Assembly (NCBI RefSeq): GCF_022352215.1
Contig: NZ_JAKRWF010000001.1
Coordinates: 186,001-250,000 of the forward strand
From: Flavihumibacter cheonanensis
Lineage (GTDB): Bacteria; Bacteroidota; Bacteroidia; Chitinophagales; Chitinophagaceae
Direction of reading: 5' to 3'
Length of the DNA stretch: 64,000 nt
Under the pieces are notes generated by a model, which saw only the letters and a program-made list of their open reading frames with translations, made no database searches and had not been told where the DNA came from. Positions 8,371 to 62,799 of the stretch are shown piece after piece. How positions within the stretch are numbered: position 1 is the first letter of the stretch; the number at the start of each line of letters is the position of its first letter. The position numbers and the translations under genes were made by a program.

Positions 8371-11072
8371 TTCTTTGCCGACAGGTTTTGAATATCTATG
8401 CTGAATGAAATTGTTTTCCAGAATCTTTTTTCTCCCAATGTAGATTGATGGTAGTTGCGGAATACTTTGGAATTCACAATGGGAATGTACAGGTTAACCA
8501 GGTTTCGGAATAAGGAAAACTGCAACCCTGCATCCATTAAAAATCGCCCATCTTCCTGATCCTCTTCCCAGGCACCAGCATAGGTGCCGATATCCATGAA
8601 TAATTTCATTGGAATTTTTACCGGCAGTTTACTTAAGGGATTTAAGTTGGCCGGAATATCTGCAGTAAGATTCAGCGCAGTTAACCAATTGTCAGACCTT
8701 CCTACTTTACTGCTTAACAAATCGGTTCGTACTTTGAACCCGCCATCCCGCATCATGATCTGCTGGCTTTTCCATCCGGTGAATTCATTTCTGCCGGCAA
8801 AATAGTTGCTGTAGGTATAATCTTCAAAACCATTGGCACCAGTCATGTTCAGGTAATACCGGCTGTTGGTCAATTGCTTCTCCACAGTGTTTGCTCCATG
8901 AGGAATAAACTTGCCGGCAAAGAACCTGACCTGCAGGCCACCACCTTCCGGTTTGGGATAATTCAGGAAATATTGAGCTGTGAATGAAAGTCGCGAAAAT
9001 GTATTCCCCACCTCAATGCGCCCATCCAGGCTGTATGGATACAATATCCGATGATTGGCATGGAAGATACGCAGTTGTTGCAGGTTCCTGTTTACCGGAT
9101 TGATTTCATCTATGAAGGAAGTATCCGTACCATCAATAACCTGTCGGGTTTTCAGAAACTCCTCCCGGAAAAAATAAGAGGTAAACTGAAGGAAGCTTTC
9201 TTTTTTAGAAACTGCCGAAGGTTGGGCAAAATTGATTCGCAGATAGGGAGCCAGTTTCAGAACGCTGAATTGAAGATCGGTAGTACCGGCCTGAAATGCA
9301 TCCATGGTAACCTTCATCATCGAGGCACCCAACACCCACTCCTGTATTGCTAAAGCAGTATTTTTTTCACCCTTACTGAACCAATGCTTGCTGATATGCC
9401 CGATACCTCCCAGTTCCTTACTACTGGTTCCATAAGTAGGTGCAAGAAAGAATCGAAACCGGCTGAGCGGAAGCTGATAGTTATGAAAAAAAGCACCCAC
9501 CTGTAAACCATCATAGTGATTATATCCAATAGCCGGACCAATTCCCAGGTATTGAAATTTATCCGTTTGCCGGCTGCTGAATAAAAAAACAGGTTTGATT
9601 TTTCGTCCGGATACATTCAATAACGGATCATTGGTTGGAATAGGAGTTGAACCTGCGAAACTGGTTGCAAAATCGCTGCTGTCTGCGTGCCTGTACAGGT
9701 GCTTCTTTACGTAAGTACGCATCATCTCATCAAATCGTTCAGCGCCCAGCTTTTTTTCCAATTGTTCCAGTTGAAGGGCTGTTTTCTCATACACCATCAA
9801 TCCATAATTAATGGAAGTCAATTCTTCTGATGGCAGCGCAGGTGATTGATCTGCATGAATGCTTTCCAACCCCTGTATCAGTGGCAATGAAATATTATCC
9901 GGGAATCTGTTTGCCGGGAAACCGTCAGGAGCGTCACCAGGATAGAATTGCTTTTTGTATCGGTTATCATAAAAGCTGTTAAGTCCTTCATCCAGCCAGG
10001 GACTATTTCTTTCATTATTTGCAATGGACAATGCGAACCAGTTATGACCGGTTTCATGTGCGATGGTAATATCCAGTTCCTGTTGATCGCGGAGCTGGTT
10101 CAATACTGTGATCGTTGGATATTCCATACCTCCTGCTCCGGCACCCTGGTATCCATCTACAATGGTCATGGTCGAATAGGGATAATCACCCAGCCAGGCG
10201 GACCGGGTACTAATAGCCCGCTTCAGATAAGTCAGACTATTCTCCCAATAGGATTCATTTTGTTTCAATACCGCAGATTGCAGTTTAATAATTTTTCCAG
10301 ATGCGAGTTGTACCGTGTCCTGTTGCAGTAAAAAGTCTTTCGAAACAAACCAGGCAAAATCAGTACAGTTCACCTGGCTGAATTCAACTACTTCATTACT
10401 GGAAGTTAAACCTGACTCACGCTCACCAGTAGCTGCTATTTTATAGCCCTGCGGAACGGTTAGGCGAACCCGGTAGTTACCGAATTCATTGTAGTATTCA
10501 CCCTGATCCAGATAGGGCATGGGATGCCATCCCTGGGCATCGTACACAGCTGGTTTGGGATACCATTGGGTAATGGCATAAAAACCATTCTTATGTCCCG
10601 ATCTTGAAAACAGCAGCGGAAGTTTGACCTGGAAGCTATTTACAATTTTCACCACTTCACCAGGAGCCAGGGGATTCAACAACAGGAGTTTACCAAAATC
10701 CTGGTGGAGGGAATCTTCCTGCCATTCCAGCAACTCGTTATTCACAGCAAACTGCAGGCGGTTGATATAACCGCGGTCTTCTTCCTTGCTGAAATAAAAA
10801 TCAAGGCGGTTATTTTGAAGGAGTTGTTCACTGAATGCTGTATGATCGTTTTTATAGGCATTGGGCCAGATATGCAGGTAGATATAGTGCAGTGTATCCG
10901 GACTGTTATTGAAATAATGAATCACCTGCCGGGCAGATATGGTGTGGGTGCTAGGGTTTAACTCAGCTTCAATGGTATGATCCACGCGTTGTTGCCAGTA
11001 ATCCTGTGAAAAACCAGGCAACTGGCAAGCCATTAAAAAAGGTAAAAGGAATATTTTTTTCAGCTGGTACAT
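8352..11072 (-). CDS. M1 family metallopeptidase (secreted gluzincin)
   Basis: A 906-residue aminopeptidase-type protease exported by an N-terminal signal peptide (ending near GFSQDY). The zinc site is complete: HETGH near residue 340 with the third ligand Glu in WLDEGLNSFYD 18 residues on, and the substrate-anchoring GGMEY upstream in place of GAMEN. The N-terminal M1 beta domain (ELNPSTHTISARQVIHYFNN) is present. The C-terminal 400 residues resemble beta-strand repeats (many aromatic-alternating strands, such as FLAPTYGTSSKELGG) and may form a barrel or ARM-substitute. It lies 6 bases after the sugar transferase. Confidence 0.87.
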   Translation of the reverse strand: MYQLKKIFLLPFLMACQLPGFSQDYWQQRVDHTIEAELNPSTHTISARQVIHYFNNSPDTLHYIYLHIWPNAYKNDHTAFSEQLLQNNRLDFYFSKEEDRGYINRLQFAVNNELLEWQEDSLHQDFGKLLLLNPLAPGEVVKIVNSFQVKLPLLFSRSGHKNGFYAITQWYPKPAVYDAQGWHPMPYLDQGEYYNEFGNYRVRLTVPQGYKIAATGERESGLTSSNEVVEFSQVNCTDFAWFVSKDFLLQQDTVQLASGKIIKLQSAVLKQNESYWENSLTYLKRAISTRSAWLGDYPYSTMTIVDGYQGAGAGGMEYPTITVLNQLRDQQELDITIAHETGHNWFALSIANNERNSPWLDEGLNSFYDNRYKKQFYPGDAPDGFPANRFPDNISLPLIQGLESIHADQSPALPSEELTSINYGLMVYEKTALQLEQLEKKLGAERFDEMMRTYVKKHLYRHADSSDFATSFAGSTPIPTNDPLLNVSGRKIKPVFLFSSRQTDKFQYLGIGPAIGYNHYDGLQVGAFFHNYQLPLSRFRFFLAPTYGTSSKELGGIGHISKHWFSKGEKNTALAIQEWVLGASMMKVTMDAFQAGTTDLQFSVLKLAPYLRINFAQPSAVSKKESFLQFTSYFFREEFLKTRQVIDGTDTSFIDEINPVNRNLQQLRIFHANHRILYPYSLDGRIEVGNTFSRLSFTAQYFLNYPKPEGGGLQVRFFAGKFIPHGANTVEKQLTNSRYYLNMTGANGFEDYTYSNYFAGRNEFTGWKSQQIMMRDGGFKVRTDLLSSKVGRSDNWLTALNLTADIPANLNPLSKLPVKIPMKLFMDIGTYAGAWEEDQEDGRFLMDAGLQFSLFRNLVNLYIPIVNSKVFRNYHQSTLGEKRFWKTISFSIDIQNLSAKKWLMTQ

Positions 11073-57922: not shown

Positions 57923-57938
57923 TACGAATTTTTGCGTA
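57923..57938 (+). promoter_or_regulatory. Dyad site 1: TACGAA-TTTT-TGCGTA
   Basis: A 16-base dyad of the form TACG(A/C)A-N4-TGCGTA, 53 bases before the ATG of the unknown lipoprotein gene. A GATTTTTA element begins exactly 24 bases after its end (57962), the same distance as at site 3. Likely a regulator-binding site. Confidence 0.6.
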
Positions 57939-57991
57939 TTGCAGCAGTCTGGAATTAGCGAGATTTTTATTCCACTTTTAAAATCCAGTAT

Positions 57992-59101
57992 ATGAAATGC
58001 ATTCCAATTTGGTTGGTCATTTGCACCGGCTTATTTGTTTCCTGTAGCAAAAGCAAAGAAGATGAATCCACAATCAATGCTGCTTTTGAACTAATCGAAC
58101 AACTGCCTGGGGACTCACGCTTGTATGAACAGGCCGACCTGGTCATACACAATAACCAACCCTTCATAAGTGCTACCAGCTCGGAATTCGGTAACCGCAA
58201 CAGTATCTTTCTCTTCCCTTTGCAGGATGGCTGGCGCAAATATGAACAACCCAACCAGGAATTTGTACTGCTTACCTCTTTTAATAATATGTTTTATGGA
58301 ATCATGGAATTTCGGGAACCTTACCAGGCGGGACAGGTTTCCACTTTCCGGTATTCCTATTTTCTCTACAAGTGGATCAATTCAGCGTTTGAAAACATAG
58401 CCCGACTAGATTTCACCGATCATAACGGATTGGTTCAAGCGCCTTTGCAGAATCTGCGCTGGTATAAAAACCAGGGCACACTGCAACTTGTAGCGCAACA
58501 AAGTAATGGAACCAGTTTTCTATGGAACCTCACGCTGGAACGTTTTGATCAGAAACAGGAAATTGGTAACTCCGGGCTTAATCAGGTCGTGATTCCATCT
58601 GCAGCTGGTATCAATTTCACTTCCTATCGCCAGATCAACGGAGCGTTTGACCGCCTGGATATTGTTCGGAATTATTTCTACAATGGTCAGTCTTTGCAAA
58701 CTGGCAAAGAGCATGTGTTTCAGGAAACCCTTGACGGCAGTTTTAACAGTACCTATCTGTTTTATGCAGGTATGGGTAATGCATTGTATGGGATCCGCGC
58801 CAATCAATTGCGCAATCTGGATACAGATCAAACCATAAAAGAGCTTTCAGATGGATTGCATTTCCAGGTTTCCAACATTAAATCTGCTAACGGTAAGCTA
58901 TACATGCTGATTGGTAAAGGGGATGCGGATTGTAAAATACTGGGTGTATTTGATGGGACCAATTTTAAAGAATATACCTATTCTCTGCCCGCTGAACTGG
59001 ATCCCTGTTCCCGCCTGCTCGATGTGGAAGAAGTGAATGGTAAGCTCTACTGCCTGCTGCTTAGTAACCGGCAACTGGCAGTTGTACAGCGATCGCTTTA
59101 A
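57992..59101 (+). CDS. Lipoprotein of unknown function
   Basis: A 369-residue lipoprotein (lipobox GLFVSC near residue 16). The mature part alternates strands and turns (NSIFLFPLQDGWRKY; NNMFYGIMEFREP; LYMLIGKGDADCKILGVFDG), suggesting a beta-propeller of about seven blades. No family recalled. It carries a TACGAA-N4-TGCGTA dyad upstream, shared with the two-component genes and the gene at 61798, so it may be a target of that system. It overlaps the response regulator stop by four bases, tail to tail. Confidence 0.65.
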   Translation: MKCIPIWLVICTGLFVSCSKSKEDESTINAAFELIEQLPGDSRLYEQADLVIHNNQPFISATSSEFGNRNSIFLFPLQDGWRKYEQPNQEFVLLTSFNNMFYGIMEFREPYQAGQVSTFRYSYFLYKWINSAFENIARLDFTDHNGLVQAPLQNLRWYKNQGTLQLVAQQSNGTSFLWNLTLERFDQKQEIGNSGLNQVVIPSAAGINFTSYRQINGAFDRLDIVRNYFYNGQSLQTGKEHVFQETLDGSFNSTYLFYAGMGNALYGIRANQLRNLDTDQTIKELSDGLHFQVSNIKSANGKLYMLIGKGDADCKILGVFDGTNFKEYTYSLPAELDPCSRLLDVEEVNGKLYCLLLSNRQLAVVQRSL

Positions 59102-59754
59102 GAAATCCAGTTGTTGCGCATAGCGGCATTGATGGCACTTACTTTATTGTTCACCTGCAACTTTCGGTAAATGTTTTCCAGGTGCTTACGAACTGTTCCT
59201 TCGCTGATCTCCAAACTGGCCCCGATCTGCTTGTAACCCAATCCATCTTTTAATAATTCAAGTAATTCGATTTCTCTTGGAGTTAGGTGGCAGTCAGGTT
59301 GCTGACCAGCTTGCTTTGGTTTAGAAGCTTCTGCAGCACGAATATAGTTCAGTGCTTTCAGTGCAATACTGGCCGACATGGCAGCCCCTCCGGCGATGGT
59401 TTGCTGAATGTAGGAGATCAGTTCTGTGCCGGTTTCATCTTTTAAAAGGTATCCACTGGCGCCGGCTAAAATTGATTGAAAGATTTTTTCATCGTCATCA
59501 AATGTAGTAAGCATGATGACTTTACAATAGGGATAACGTTCTGCTATATGCGCAGTAGTCTCAATACCATTAAGCTCCGGCATTTCAATATCCATTAATA
59601 CCAGGTCAATGGTCTGACTTTCCATTTTTTCCAGTAGCTCGGCCCCGTTGCCCGCTTCAATACAAACCTGGACTGATGGATCCTGTGCCAGTTTTTGAAC
59701 AATGGCAATTCTTGTCCGGGCATTGTCTTCTGCTATCGCAATTTTAATAGACAT
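59098..59754 (-). CDS. NarL/LuxR-type response regulator
   Basis: A 218-residue regulator. The receiver domain (about 1-120) has the acidic pocket AEDN, phospho-acceptor Asp in DLVLMDIEMPELNG near 54, and Lys in LLKDETG near 105. After a linker, a LuxR HTH (LTPREIELLELLKDGLGYKQ, then GASLEISEGTVRKHLENIYR) occupies about 155-215. It is downstream of the TPR kinase gene, with 34 bases between. A perfect dyad of the shared type lies 35 bases before its ATG, suggesting autoregulation. Confidence 0.94.
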   Translation of the reverse strand: MSIKIAIAEDNARTRIAIVQKLAQDPSVQVCIEAGNGAELLEKMESQTIDLVLMDIEMPELNGIETTAHIAERYPYCKVIMLTTFDDDEKIFQSILAGASGYLLKDETGTELISYIQQTIAGGAAMSASIALKALNYIRAAEASKPKQAGQQPDCHLTPREIELLELLKDGLGYKQIGASLEISEGTVRKHLENIYRKLQVNNKVSAINAAMRNNWIS

Positions 59755-59788
59755 AGTACAAATCTATAGATTCAAAAAAGCAATCGTC

Positions 59789-61666
59789 CTACGCAAAACT
59801 GCGTATCAAAGGGAGCTCAATTGTCAGCCTGGTCCCGTTTCCTTTTTCACTATGAATCTCCAGGGTTCCATTGAGCTCCTTCACGCGTTCCCGCAGGTTC
59901 CGAAGGCCTGCTCCCATGCTATCATTGCTGGTATCCATTCCTGTTCCTGAATCACTGATGCTGGCTTTCAATAAACCATTTTCCGCTACTAACTGAACAG
60001 TCACCAGGCTGGCGCTGGCATGTTTGAGTGCATTGGTTACTCCTTCCTGGATCATACGAAATAAATGCGTTGCGATTTGATTGCCCAACACCAGGTCAGG
60101 ATTACCGGTAACAGGCAGCACTTTTACCTGTGTGATTTTTTTATAATAATCAATGAGTTTGGAATTAAAGGCAGACAGGCTTACATCCGGATTGTTCATC
60201 AACCATACGGTTTTTCGCAATTCGGCAATTGTTTCATCTGTAAGCTGTCGAATATCCTGCAAGGGAACGGATGGAGTAGATCCTTCATTCGCCTGCTCAA
60301 CTGAGGCCTTGATGAAAGTGAGATAAGAACCAATATTATCATGCAGCTCTCTGGAAATCTGCATGCGCTGATCATTAAGTCGCGCCATCTCCTGCGCACC
60401 TGCCTTCAGTTTTTGTTGCTTAAAGTAGAGCAGAGCAATTATAATTGCCAATAAGAGTAGTACACTCACTCCACCTAATGCCAGGTTTCGGAATCGTAAA
60501 CTGGCTTTGCTTTTTTCCAGGGCTGCGTCTTTTTGTGCCGACTGATACCTGGTTTCCAATTCGGCGGAAGCTTTGAGCATCTCATTTTCTGTAAAACGAT
60601 TTTTTTCTGCTTCATGTAGTCCCAGATAATATTGCATACTGTCTGCCTGCTGAAGCCCTCCATAGGCAATAGCCGTTTGCAAGTAAATGCTGATGAGCTG
60701 TTCTGATAATCCGCCTGCTGCTGCAACGGGCAGGGCGAGTTTCAATTGTTCCAGGGCAGGTTTGAATGATCCAGTAGCATTATAAGCAATTGCGAGCGTC
60801 GCTCTTGCGCTGGCCAGTTCTCCATCGAGTCCCATGGATTTACGCAGTTCGATACTCTGTTCCGCCAGGCGAATAGCTTCATCAAAATCTTTTTTCCCAA
60901 TAGATATATTACTCAGGTTATTCAGGGCTGCTGACTGTGCATAGATGTTCTTAGAGCTGCCGGCAATATCCTGTGCTTTGCGGTAATAAATCAATCCGTT
61001 TGAAGTGTCCTTTGTTTTCAGGTAGGTATTACCGATATTAACCAGCGTATTTGATAGTTCGTAAGTACGGTTAAGGGATTCCAGCAATCCGGCACTTTTG
61101 GTTTGATAGTCGATGGCTTTCGAATAGTTTCCCATCGTGAAATACAAAGCTCCGATATTGCCCTGCACCTGGGCAGATTCAAATACCTTGTTCTCTTTTT
61201 CAAAATAAGCCAGGGCGGATGTGAAATGCAACATGGCACTGTCTAACTTGCCGGCCTTATAATAGCAATTACCTAATTTGAGCTGAATGGATGCCGTGCC
61301 GCTGGAATCTTTTAATGATTTTCGGATAGTCATGCCTGTGGACAGTTCTGCAATAGCGGCATCCAGATTTCCTTTGAGCAGCAGGGCTGTGCCATAGTCA
61401 TTTCGGGCCTGCGCTTCGAGGCCTGGATTGGAGATCCTGGATGCCACTACTACAGCCTGCTGACCGTAATGAATAGCCGAATCTATGGAAACAGGTAGAT
61501 AGGCCCAGCAGAGATCACTGAGCAGCTTAGCCTGTTCAGCTGCATTGGATGTTTTGTTGAAAACAACTTTCAGGGAATCAGTTTCAGAATTGTTTTGAGC
61601 TGTCAGCAGCAATGCATTCAGCACAAAGGCCAATAGCAGTGCTGCTGGTTTAAAAACTATGTACAT
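59789..61666 (-). CDS. TPR-containing sensor histidine kinase (HisKA_3/NarL-partner type)
   Basis: A 625-residue kinase. A signal/anchor (LLLAFVLNALLLTAQN) leads into a large TPR sensor domain (about 30-370; repeats such as GNIGALYFTMGNYSKAIDYQ and LVNIGNTYLKTKDTSNG), then a membrane helix (LGGVSVLLLLAIIIALLYF near 395-415), the HisKA_3 helix with the phospho-His in RELHDNIGSYLTFIKA near 440, and a HATPase with GTGMD near 577 and GAGLRNLRERVKELNG near 590. Exterior TPRs likely bind a partner or ligand. It pairs with the response regulator. Confidence 0.92.
   Translation of the reverse strand: MYIVFKPAALLLAFVLNALLLTAQNNSETDSLKVVFNKTSNAAEQAKLLSDLCWAYLPVSIDSAIHYGQQAVVVASRISNPGLEAQARNDYGTALLLKGNLDAAIAELSTGMTIRKSLKDSSGTASIQLKLGNCYYKAGKLDSAMLHFTSALAYFEKENKVFESAQVQGNIGALYFTMGNYSKAIDYQTKSAGLLESLNRTYELSNTLVNIGNTYLKTKDTSNGLIYYRKAQDIAGSSKNIYAQSAALNNLSNISIGKKDFDEAIRLAEQSIELRKSMGLDGELASARATLAIAYNATGSFKPALEQLKLALPVAAAGGLSEQLISIYLQTAIAYGGLQQADSMQYYLGLHEAEKNRFTENEMLKASAELETRYQSAQKDAALEKSKASLRFRNLALGGVSVLLLLAIIIALLYFKQQKLKAGAQEMARLNDQRMQISRELHDNIGSYLTFIKASVEQANEGSTPSVPLQDIRQLTDETIAELRKTVWLMNNPDVSLSAFNSKLIDYYKKITQVKVLPVTGNPDLVLGNQIATHLFRMIQEGVTNALKHASASLVTVQLVAENGLLKASISDSGTGMDTSNDSMGAGLRNLRERVKELNGTLEIHSEKGNGTRLTIELPLIRSFA
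59790..59805 (-). promoter_or_regulatory. Dyad site 2: TACGCA-N4-TGCGTA
   Basis: A perfect 16-base dyad at the very end of the kinase gene (it overlaps the stop codon) and 35 bases before the response regulator ATG. Its position fits an autoregulatory operator for the regulator, though coding constraint on the kinase end must be considered. Confidence 0.55.
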
Positions 61667-61731
61667 ACGGTGTTTGGGTTCTTAGGTGAATTTAAACAAT
61701 TCACACAAACGGAGAAGTGTATACGCAGTAA

Positions 61732-61747
61732 TACGAAGAATTGCGTA
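61732..61747 (+). promoter_or_regulatory. Dyad site 3: TACGAA-GAAT-TGCGTA
   Basis: It is 50 bases before the ATG at 61798 and in the gap shared with the divergent kinase gene. It is preceded by another half-site set (TACGCA at 61722-61727, then the direct TACGAA). GATTTTTA follows 24 bases after its end (61771-61778), as at site 1. The stretch after the dyad is partly conserved with site 1 too (TTGC-N-G). Confidence 0.6.
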
Positions 61748-61797
61748 TTGCGGATGGACCGGATTGTCTGGATTTTTACTGAAAAATGTATTTCTCC

Positions 61798-62799
61798 ATG
61801 AAAAAAATCCTATTCCTGTTATTACCAGCCAGTTTATTAGTAACCGAATCCGCATTTAGCCAGGTTACAGAAAAGGAAGCCAGTAAGTTTTTTGCTCCCA
61901 AAGGCAATCACCGATCCCCTTTCAAAGGTGAAACCGAAGCCTGTTTAACTAGTGTGAATCTGCAATTCAAACTTGCCTCACGTGAATACATTGAGAAGCG
62001 GGGGGCCGGCAATATTATTTCCTGGGCCTTCCTGGAGGGCATCGATGAACAATTGATGCAGGAGATTGCGAATGAATATTACGTGCGACTGGCTGCAAAG
62101 CTGAAAGAAAATGGTATTGGATTATCTGAGGAGTATCGTGAATCCGATTCCTACAAAAAATTAGTAGAGAAAAATTCAGACCGCAACCGGGAAGTCTTTA
62201 AGAAAAACTGGGGTGTGAGTCGCATCCTTACGGCCAATGAAGCCCCCTATATTGAATATCCCGTGGGTATGATGGGGCCCCATTCTTCTTTAGGTAATGA
62301 TTTGAAGAAGCCGGTTGGGCAGGTTTTCATCACCATCGACTTCGCTGAATTTGTATTGAAGATTAGTCAGTCAGCCCGCGATATCCAGGGGATTACCACG
62401 ACCAAATCAAAATCCACCCTGATTCCTCGGATCCGGATTGAAGGTGTATCCCAGGGGGCCAAGATGCGCGGCGATGGAAGTTATGCCTTGTTTACAGGCC
62501 GCAATTGGGGGTATACCAATGCCATCATGCCAAATGATAAGGCACTCCATTCGGATCTGGGTTATGCACTGGAAACACAGGCTAGTAAAGGCATGCCGGA
62601 AACGATGAAACGCTTCAAGTCTAATGTGGCGGGTGATATGGCAGCCATTTTCAGTGGTGGACTGGTAGGTAATGGTCGCGCTACAGGTGAGTTCACCTAC
62701 ACGGTAAAAGCTGATCCTGCCCTTTATAAAAAGGCAGTACTTGACGCGCTGGATAATTTCAATACTTACCTGGTAGCCTACATTAATTCAAATCGCTAG
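61798..62799 (+). CDS. Secreted protein of unknown function
   Basis: A 333-residue protein with a signal peptide (KKILFLLLPASLLVTESAFS). The mature region begins VTEKEASKFFAPKGN and mixes helices and strands (YIEKRGAGNIISWAFLEGID; NEYYVRLAAKLKENG; VGQVFITIDFAEFVLKISQS; TLIPRIRIEGVSQGAKMRGD). It ends with an amphipathic helix (ALDNFNTYLVAYINSNR). No family is recalled. ATG at 61798 is chosen over 61786 because the signal peptide starts there. It shares the dyad site with the lipoprotein at 57992. Confidence 0.6.
   Translation: MKKILFLLLPASLLVTESAFSQVTEKEASKFFAPKGNHRSPFKGETEACLTSVNLQFKLASREYIEKRGAGNIISWAFLEGIDEQLMQEIANEYYVRLAAKLKENGIGLSEEYRESDSYKKLVEKNSDRNREVFKKNWGVSRILTANEAPYIEYPVGMMGPHSSLGNDLKKPVGQVFITIDFAEFVLKISQSARDIQGITTTKSKSTLIPRIRIEGVSQGAKMRGDGSYALFTGRNWGYTNAIMPNDKALHSDLGYALETQASKGMPETMKRFKSNVAGDMAAIFSGGLVGNGRATGEFTYTVKADPALYKKAVLDALDNFNTYLVAYINSNR

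Follow-up and report, generated by a model that had tools for sequence, protein, structure and literature searches.

Pairs of a sensor histidine kinase with tetratricopeptide repeats (TPRs) and a NarL-type response regulator are common in Bacteroidetes. To our knowledge, the operators and targets of these pairs are mostly unknown. Here we describe a putative mini-regulon around one such pair in Flavihumibacter cheonanensis, found in a window of 64,000 nucleotides (positions 186,001 to 250,000 of the forward strand of contig NZ_JAKRWF010000001.1) of an assembly of 4,844,690 bases (4.84 Mb) in 241 contigs. The locus is made of four genes, coding for a lipoprotein-like exported protein (LIP), a response regulator (RR), a TPR sensor histidine kinase (HK) and a secreted protein (SEC), and of three copies of a 16-bp inverted repeat, or dyad, each facing LIP, RR or SEC (Table 1). 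Protein RR contains the Pfam domains Response_reg (1.2e-23) and GerE (9e-17), and its D55 is invariant across nine aligned regulators. In HK, a hydrophobic segment (residues 1-23) is followed by the TPRs, a second hydrophobic segment (390-420), and then HisKA_3 and HATPase_c.

Table 1. Genes, dyads and predicted promoter elements of the locus, in window coordinates (aa, amino acids; +1, transcript start)
Feature	Position	Strand	Description
LIP	57992-59101	+	Exported lipoprotein-like protein of 369 aa; a beta-propeller is predicted
RR	59098-59754	-	NarL/LuxR-type response regulator, 218 aa, receiver and GerE domains
HK	59789-61666	-	TPR sensor histidine kinase, 625 aa
SEC	61786-62799	+	Secreted protein, 337 aa (333 aa if begun at 61798, the likelier start)
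Dyad (operator) 1	57923-57938	+	TACGAATTTTTGCGTA; faces LIP
Dyad (operator) 2	59790-59805	-	TACGCAGTTTTGCGTA on the minus strand; overlaps the 3' end of HK
Dyad (operator) 3	61732-61747	+	TACGAAGAATTGCGTA; in the divergent HK/SEC gap, facing SEC
TTG (-33-like), N20, GATTTTTA	57939-57969	+	-7-like box at 57962-57969; predicted +1 near 57974
TTG, N20, GATTTTTA	61748-61778	+	Box at 61771-61778; predicted +1 near 61783
TAGATTTG	59759-59766	-	-7 box of the RR promoter, 23 bases from dyad 2
Third half-site, TACGCA	61722-61727	+	Precedes dyad 3 by one helical turn

The three dyads had been noticed in a first-pass annotation of the window, which proposed that they mark a mini-regulon controlled by the regulator of the TPR kinase. 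All three are present at the positions it gave and are the sole exact matches in the assembly, where TACGMANNNNTGCGTA is found only at 57923, 59790 and 61732 (three places, four strand matches); a scan of the genome thus returns no scatter of random positions but three exact places, all at this locus. The reversed pattern gives three matches in the same assembly, so that the raw count is ordinary; the three dyads fall inside 3.9 kb, an arrangement with a probability of about 6e-7 under uniform placement. The annotation had also described GATTTTTA downstream of dyads 1 and 3 only. This box does begin 24 bases past the end of both sites, but dyad 2 has the equivalent TAGATTTG on the minus strand, and the restriction to two sites has to be dropped. 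Read towards the target gene, the spacing between dyad and -7-like box is exactly 23 bases at all three copies, and the centre of each dyad lies at a predicted -43.5. The composite of dyad, N23 and NANNTTTR occurs in the source genome at three zero-mismatch places and at no one-mismatch place, while with up to two mismatches it has five matches in total against 13 for the reversed control. No further sites emerged in this genome from the dyad relaxed to one mismatch or fewer, which has 44 strand matches against 58 for its reversed control. The third half-site, next to dyad 3, is exact in the related loci L015, L019, L020 and L021 and altered by one base in L022.

Elsewhere in the source genome, on contig C175, three near-matches resembling TACGAA-N4-TTCGTA are found within 1.4 kb (locus L001, 3999-4036 and 5376-5391). 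They precede genes for small exported proteins, with one of them some 20 bases ahead of an ATG instead of 23 bases from a -7 box. This differently laid out cluster is probably another element.

Palindromes of this kind could be RNA hairpins, acting as attenuators or terminators, or could arise by chance, and dyad 2 folds into a 6-bp stem, while the raw genome count of the dyad is near that of its reversed control (four against three strand matches). We consider this explanation very improbable. The dyads lie upstream of the predicted transcript starts, and RNA folding of the three regions, with z-scores of -1.44, -1.05 and -0.26, is not clearly stronger than that of shuffled sequences, so the hairpin was rejected; the clustering, the phasing and the cross-genus conservation described below argue strongly against chance.

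The elements that follow the dyads resemble promoters, a TTG at -33 being a promoter element of Bacteroidetes. A study on Flavobacterium psychrophilum places the sigma-A -7 box, TAnnTTTG, at -12 to -5 (PMC9723704). The RR promoter is like Bacteroidetes sigma-A promoters in this respect, since its box TAGATTTG is a perfect match to the consensus, whereas the target promoters differ in having SAnnTTTA instead of TAnnTTTG. From their sequence, we read the SAnnTTTA boxes as weak -7 boxes that would depend on an activator. Dyad 2 covers the last codons and the stop of HK (59789-61666), and RR therefore appears to own a separate promoter. The predicted start of the RR transcript is the A of its own ATG (59754; region 59754-59766), and the RR mRNA is possibly leaderless.

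Conservation was examined at loci chosen by similarity to SEC. Homologues at E ≤ 0.001 are present in five of 195 family genomes, the source genome counted, and a scan of a collection of 84,980 species, bounded by the two peptide patterns used for it, returned 11 loci. The unit formed by dyad, TTG, N20 and box is found upstream of SEC, or of an operon containing SEC, in nine of these 11 loci: four of Flavihumibacter type (L019-L022), one each in Gynurincola (L023), UBA4857 (L025) and Niabella (L028), and two in metagenome-assembled genomes (MAGs) labelled Pedobacter (L026 and L029). The dyads of L022, L026, L028 and L029 are one base different from TACGMANNNNTKCGTA. Loci from different searches are not independent, as, judged by length, L021 is the same contig as that of G008 (L015), and L023, L024 and L025 are the same contigs as L016, L017 and L018; furthermore, the SEC protein of the window is 100% identical to that of the Flavihumibacter sp. 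Prado059 contig (L019). In Gynurincola, one contig carries SEC (L023, by length the same as G036 C27) and another the HK-RR pair (L044); both keep the dyad, and further dyads face the gene of a TPR-CHAT protein and that of a 345-aa lipoprotein. The TPR-CHAT gene (L044, 10828-13683; CHAT, 4.6e-56), which has an apparent signal peptide, is divergent from the kinase gene and faces a dyad; its product may be a CHAT protein that is exported and controlled by a two-component system.

The two SEC loci without the unit are informative exceptions. There is no dyad upstream of SEC in S. lumbrici (L027), and no match to the regulator at E ≤ 1e-40 in its genome, for which no completeness is given. In the 47-18 MAG (L024), a LIP-SEC operon adjoins a regulator only 42% identical, and the gap holds a different 16-bp dyad, TAGTAC-N4-GTACTA (8699-8714), 23 bases before CAATTTTG; this site is single, with none at the kinase-regulator junction. 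The locus is suggestive, and only suggestive, of a possible swap of operator and regulator together. TACG-N8-CGTA is also absent from the 500 bases upstream of two SEC homologues that are more distant, L045 and L046.

The pattern itself was then searched across the family. With TTG included and up to one mismatch, the composite is found, among 394 family genomes, at 18 places in 11 genomes, two of the places being those of the window from which the pattern came, and the reversed control at none. Nine of these 11 genomes are among the 21 that have a close relative of the regulator (Fisher 2.7e-11, uncorrected for relatedness). A looser dyad with zero mismatch matched in 10 of 20 chosen genomes, again with a control of 0. 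Information content was calculated after setting aside G029, G614 and two near-duplicates, which left 14 of 18 target rows; it amounts to 23.2 bits for the dyad, 5.8 for the TTG and 12.7 for the box and the next base, against a mean of 0.26 bits per base over the 20-base spacer. In genome G029, an exact dyad-TTG-N20-box (L072, 8213-8228) precedes the gene of an outer-membrane beta-barrel protein, by a non-orthologous regulator-kinase pair.

Regulators were also chosen by protein similarity alone. The UBA4857 regulator was used as a query, with only the seven best first-look candidates per genome scored; at E ≤ 1e-52, 21 of 394 genomes, from 14 of 101 genera, together contain 26 relatives. Scoring covered 25 of these loci, from 320 bases before to 80 bases after the start of the frame; L087, where no regulator frame was parsed, was omitted, though TACG-N8-CGTA is present at 1913. 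This core motif is found in 17 of the 25 loci, as compared with a mean of 0.075 and a maximum of 2 loci in a shuffled-composition control; the Markov control, taken from 420 bases of each of the 26 loci with minus-strand loci unturned, accounts for composition only. Among the 17 dyad-bearing loci, 12 have the full NANNTTTR at exactly N23, three have TTTG without the A, and two are shifted by one base. At one locus (L099, 1405-1420; G614 C133), a second TACG-N8-CGTA, with TACTTTTG at N23, is located beyond the regulator start and is possibly a further target promoter.

In a tree of these regulators, which also omits L087, a clade of 18 (support 0.94) includes 16 with the dyad before the regulator gene, the Pedobacter regulator L049 having been scored as dyad-bearing by hand; two further dyad-bearing regulators, L095 and L101, fall outside it. 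The recognition helix follows the dyad as well, since within the scored set the dyad accompanies 17 of 20 regulators with RKH as against none of five with KRH or RRH (Fisher p 0.001). The helix was rejected as the sole determinant: the paralogues L039, L042 and L052 have RKH and yet no dyad, and the clade explains the distribution better. The paralogue control had seven of ten loci parsed (L037, L041 and L043 were unparsed, and L051 and L095 are one gene); none of the five paralogues in G000 and G036 (L036, L038, L039, L040 and L042) has the dyad in its own promoter, or none of six with L052. Since the dyad is kept in orthologous loci, both at SEC and before the regulator gene, at SEC genes unlinked to the pair, and throughout most of one regulator clade, the proposal of a mini-regulon controlled by the NarL-type partner of the TPR kinase holds, and comparative genomics supports it.

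It could be argued that a different regulator, for example a paralogous NarL-type protein, binds the dyads and that the adjacent RR is merely one of its targets. At E ≤ 1e-3, RR has 38 matches in the source genome, of which several are NarL-type proteins, and both the G029 composite, next to a non-orthologous regulator, and the LIP-SEC operon of L024, next to a regulator of 42% identity and another dyad, would fit such an arrangement. This seems unlikely to us, because the dyad tracks the RR clade, a close RR relative is present in nine of the 11 composite-bearing genomes, the promoters of the parsed paralogues in G000 and G036 contain no dyad, and at L024 the putative operator differs along with the local regulator.

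A number of observations weigh against control of these dyads by RR and its orthologues. Many rows of target promoters were found via the pattern itself, and eight of the 25 scored regulator loci (L078-L081, L086, L088, L089 and L092) already had known dyads; of the 17 that were new by the protein route, nine carry one. One composite match (G521) is inside a gene. The regulator adjoining the G029 composite has 41% identity over 155 residues to that of UBA4857, and this genome has no regulator relative at E ≤ 1e-52. Within the clade, L082 has a seven-of-eight version of the dyad, with TTG, and L083 has none; Flavihumibacter UBA7668 (L022) is without a dyad ahead of its regulator, as are L098 and the five regulators with KRH or RRH. 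A TVRKH helix is insufficient, being present without a dyad in paralogues L039 and L042. The box of the target promoters (GATTTTTA and similar) deviates from the sigma-A consensus. Finally, for FimR of Porphyromonas gingivalis, phosphorylation is reported to leave DNA binding unchanged (PMC1974823), so the phosphorylation of RR in the circuit proposed below should not be taken for granted.

Together, these data make it probable that the adjacent NarL-type regulator binds the dyads and activates LIP, SEC and its own gene, and not the kinase gene. Sequence and comparison show directly where the sites are, how they are phased, that they are conserved and that they go with a regulator clade; binding of the dyads by RR, activation instead of repression, and phosphorylation are what we infer. 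By analogy with FimS, HK would have its TPRs in the periplasm and sense possibly a protein or peptide ligand, and it would then phosphorylate RR. By analogy with NarL, RR would dimerize on the inverted repeat TACGMA-N4-TKCGTA in a 7-2-7 geometry, with the dimer centred near -43.5 and beside the -33 TTG, from where it would activate the weak -7 boxes ahead of LIP and SEC. From dyad 2, within the 3' end of HK, RR would activate its own gene separately from that of the kinase. When the divergent dyads are read towards the kinase, a box at the same spacing is found in none of seven, and RR is for this reason expected to raise its targets and itself, and not HK; the resulting positive feedback would increase the level of the regulator and leave that of the kinase unchanged.

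Studies on Escherichia coli NarL describe 16-bp sites with inverted repeats in 7-2-7 arrangement, TACCCCTAAAGGGGTA (PMC4549865), and a single site at -44.5, or also at -66.5 or -77.5, that suffices for activation (PMC9314961). RR is like NarL in its GerE/LuxR output domain, and the dyads are like NarL sites by geometry only, that is, in the 16-bp inverted repeat with TAC...GTA ends and in a predicted centre, -43.5, near the -44.5 from which a single NarL site can activate. The half-site differs, TACGMA here as against the TACCCCT-type heptamer; RR scores 126.1 bits, below the 250 bits of the NarL equivalog cut-off; and the targets found here include no nitrate genes. NarL can also act negatively, as the first source reports repression of frdA from a 7-2-7 site at -4/+6 (PMC4549865), and the polymerase might in principle be obstructed by a dimer at -43.5. 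Repression by RR of its targets, or of its own gene, is nevertheless improbable: the constant 23-base spacing, a TTG directly adjoining the dyad and -7 boxes of weak sequence suit an activator placed beside the polymerase, and the dyad overlaps neither the predicted start nor the -7 box.

The closest layout known to us is FimS/FimR of P. gingivalis. FimS is a periplasmic multi-TPR sensor kinase whose signal is perhaps a protein or peptide (PMC5706477, PMC11053733), and FimR is an activator of genes for exported surface proteins that binds a target promoter (PMC5706477, PMC1974823, PMC11053733). HK is alike in having its TPR region between two membrane segments, followed by HisKA_3 and HATPase_c, and the NCBIfam FimS model is among its matches, but at 60.9 bits against an equivalog cut-off of 600. 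There is no fimbrial Pfam family among the targets examined here, and here a separate operator for RR lies within the 3' end of HK; the cited sources, in their available parts, give no FimR operator motif. The first-pass annotation had spoken of an undescribed sensing system, which is too strong, since a periplasmic-TPR kinase with an activating regulator is the FimS/FimR layout (PMC5706477). What we describe is a new regulon of an already known type of system, with two unannotated exported families as its targets. Neither this operator, nor the regulon, nor a name for the secreted family appeared among the literature titles and abstract openings listed, which cover few subscription papers.

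LIP has no Pfam match and no NCBIfam match at E ≤ 0.1, and its predicted structure is a beta-propeller (pLDDT, a model confidence score, of 76.6) that matches 419 PDB chains at E ≤ 0.001; homology to a Niabella propeller protein was discarded after BLAST gave no meaningful match. SEC has no Pfam match at E ≤ 0.1 and a single chance-level NCBIfam match (0.086), and across 12 members of its family the sole Pfam match is a weak one, to a phage tail family (0.016). The model of SEC is of medium confidence (pLDDT 71.7), and searches of the PDB were empty, by sequence at E ≤ 1 and by fold at E ≤ 0.001. Eight of the ten best Foldseek matches are CsgG chains, yet at E 0.05-0.5 and TM scores of 0.11-0.13, and we make no claim of a CsgG-like pore. 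As a tentative and rather speculative extension, LIP and SEC might constitute a new module for export, made of a propeller lipoprotein and a possibly oligomeric surface protein. Its expression would be coupled to a self-amplifying readout by a periplasmic TPR sensor, and its operator cassette (dyad-TTG-N20-box) would be portable. If so, the cassette would let other genomes plug exported effectors into the same switch, candidates being the TPR-CHAT protease-like protein, a weakly ricin-lectin-like protein and other lipoproteins.

The comparative evidence for this regulon is unusually clear, in that the sequences of several genera show operator, promoter phasing, regulator clade and targets side by side. 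They supply a pattern that can be searched for directly and two exported families that lack annotation, and the separate self-activation of RR from inside the kinase gene would be a testable circuit design.

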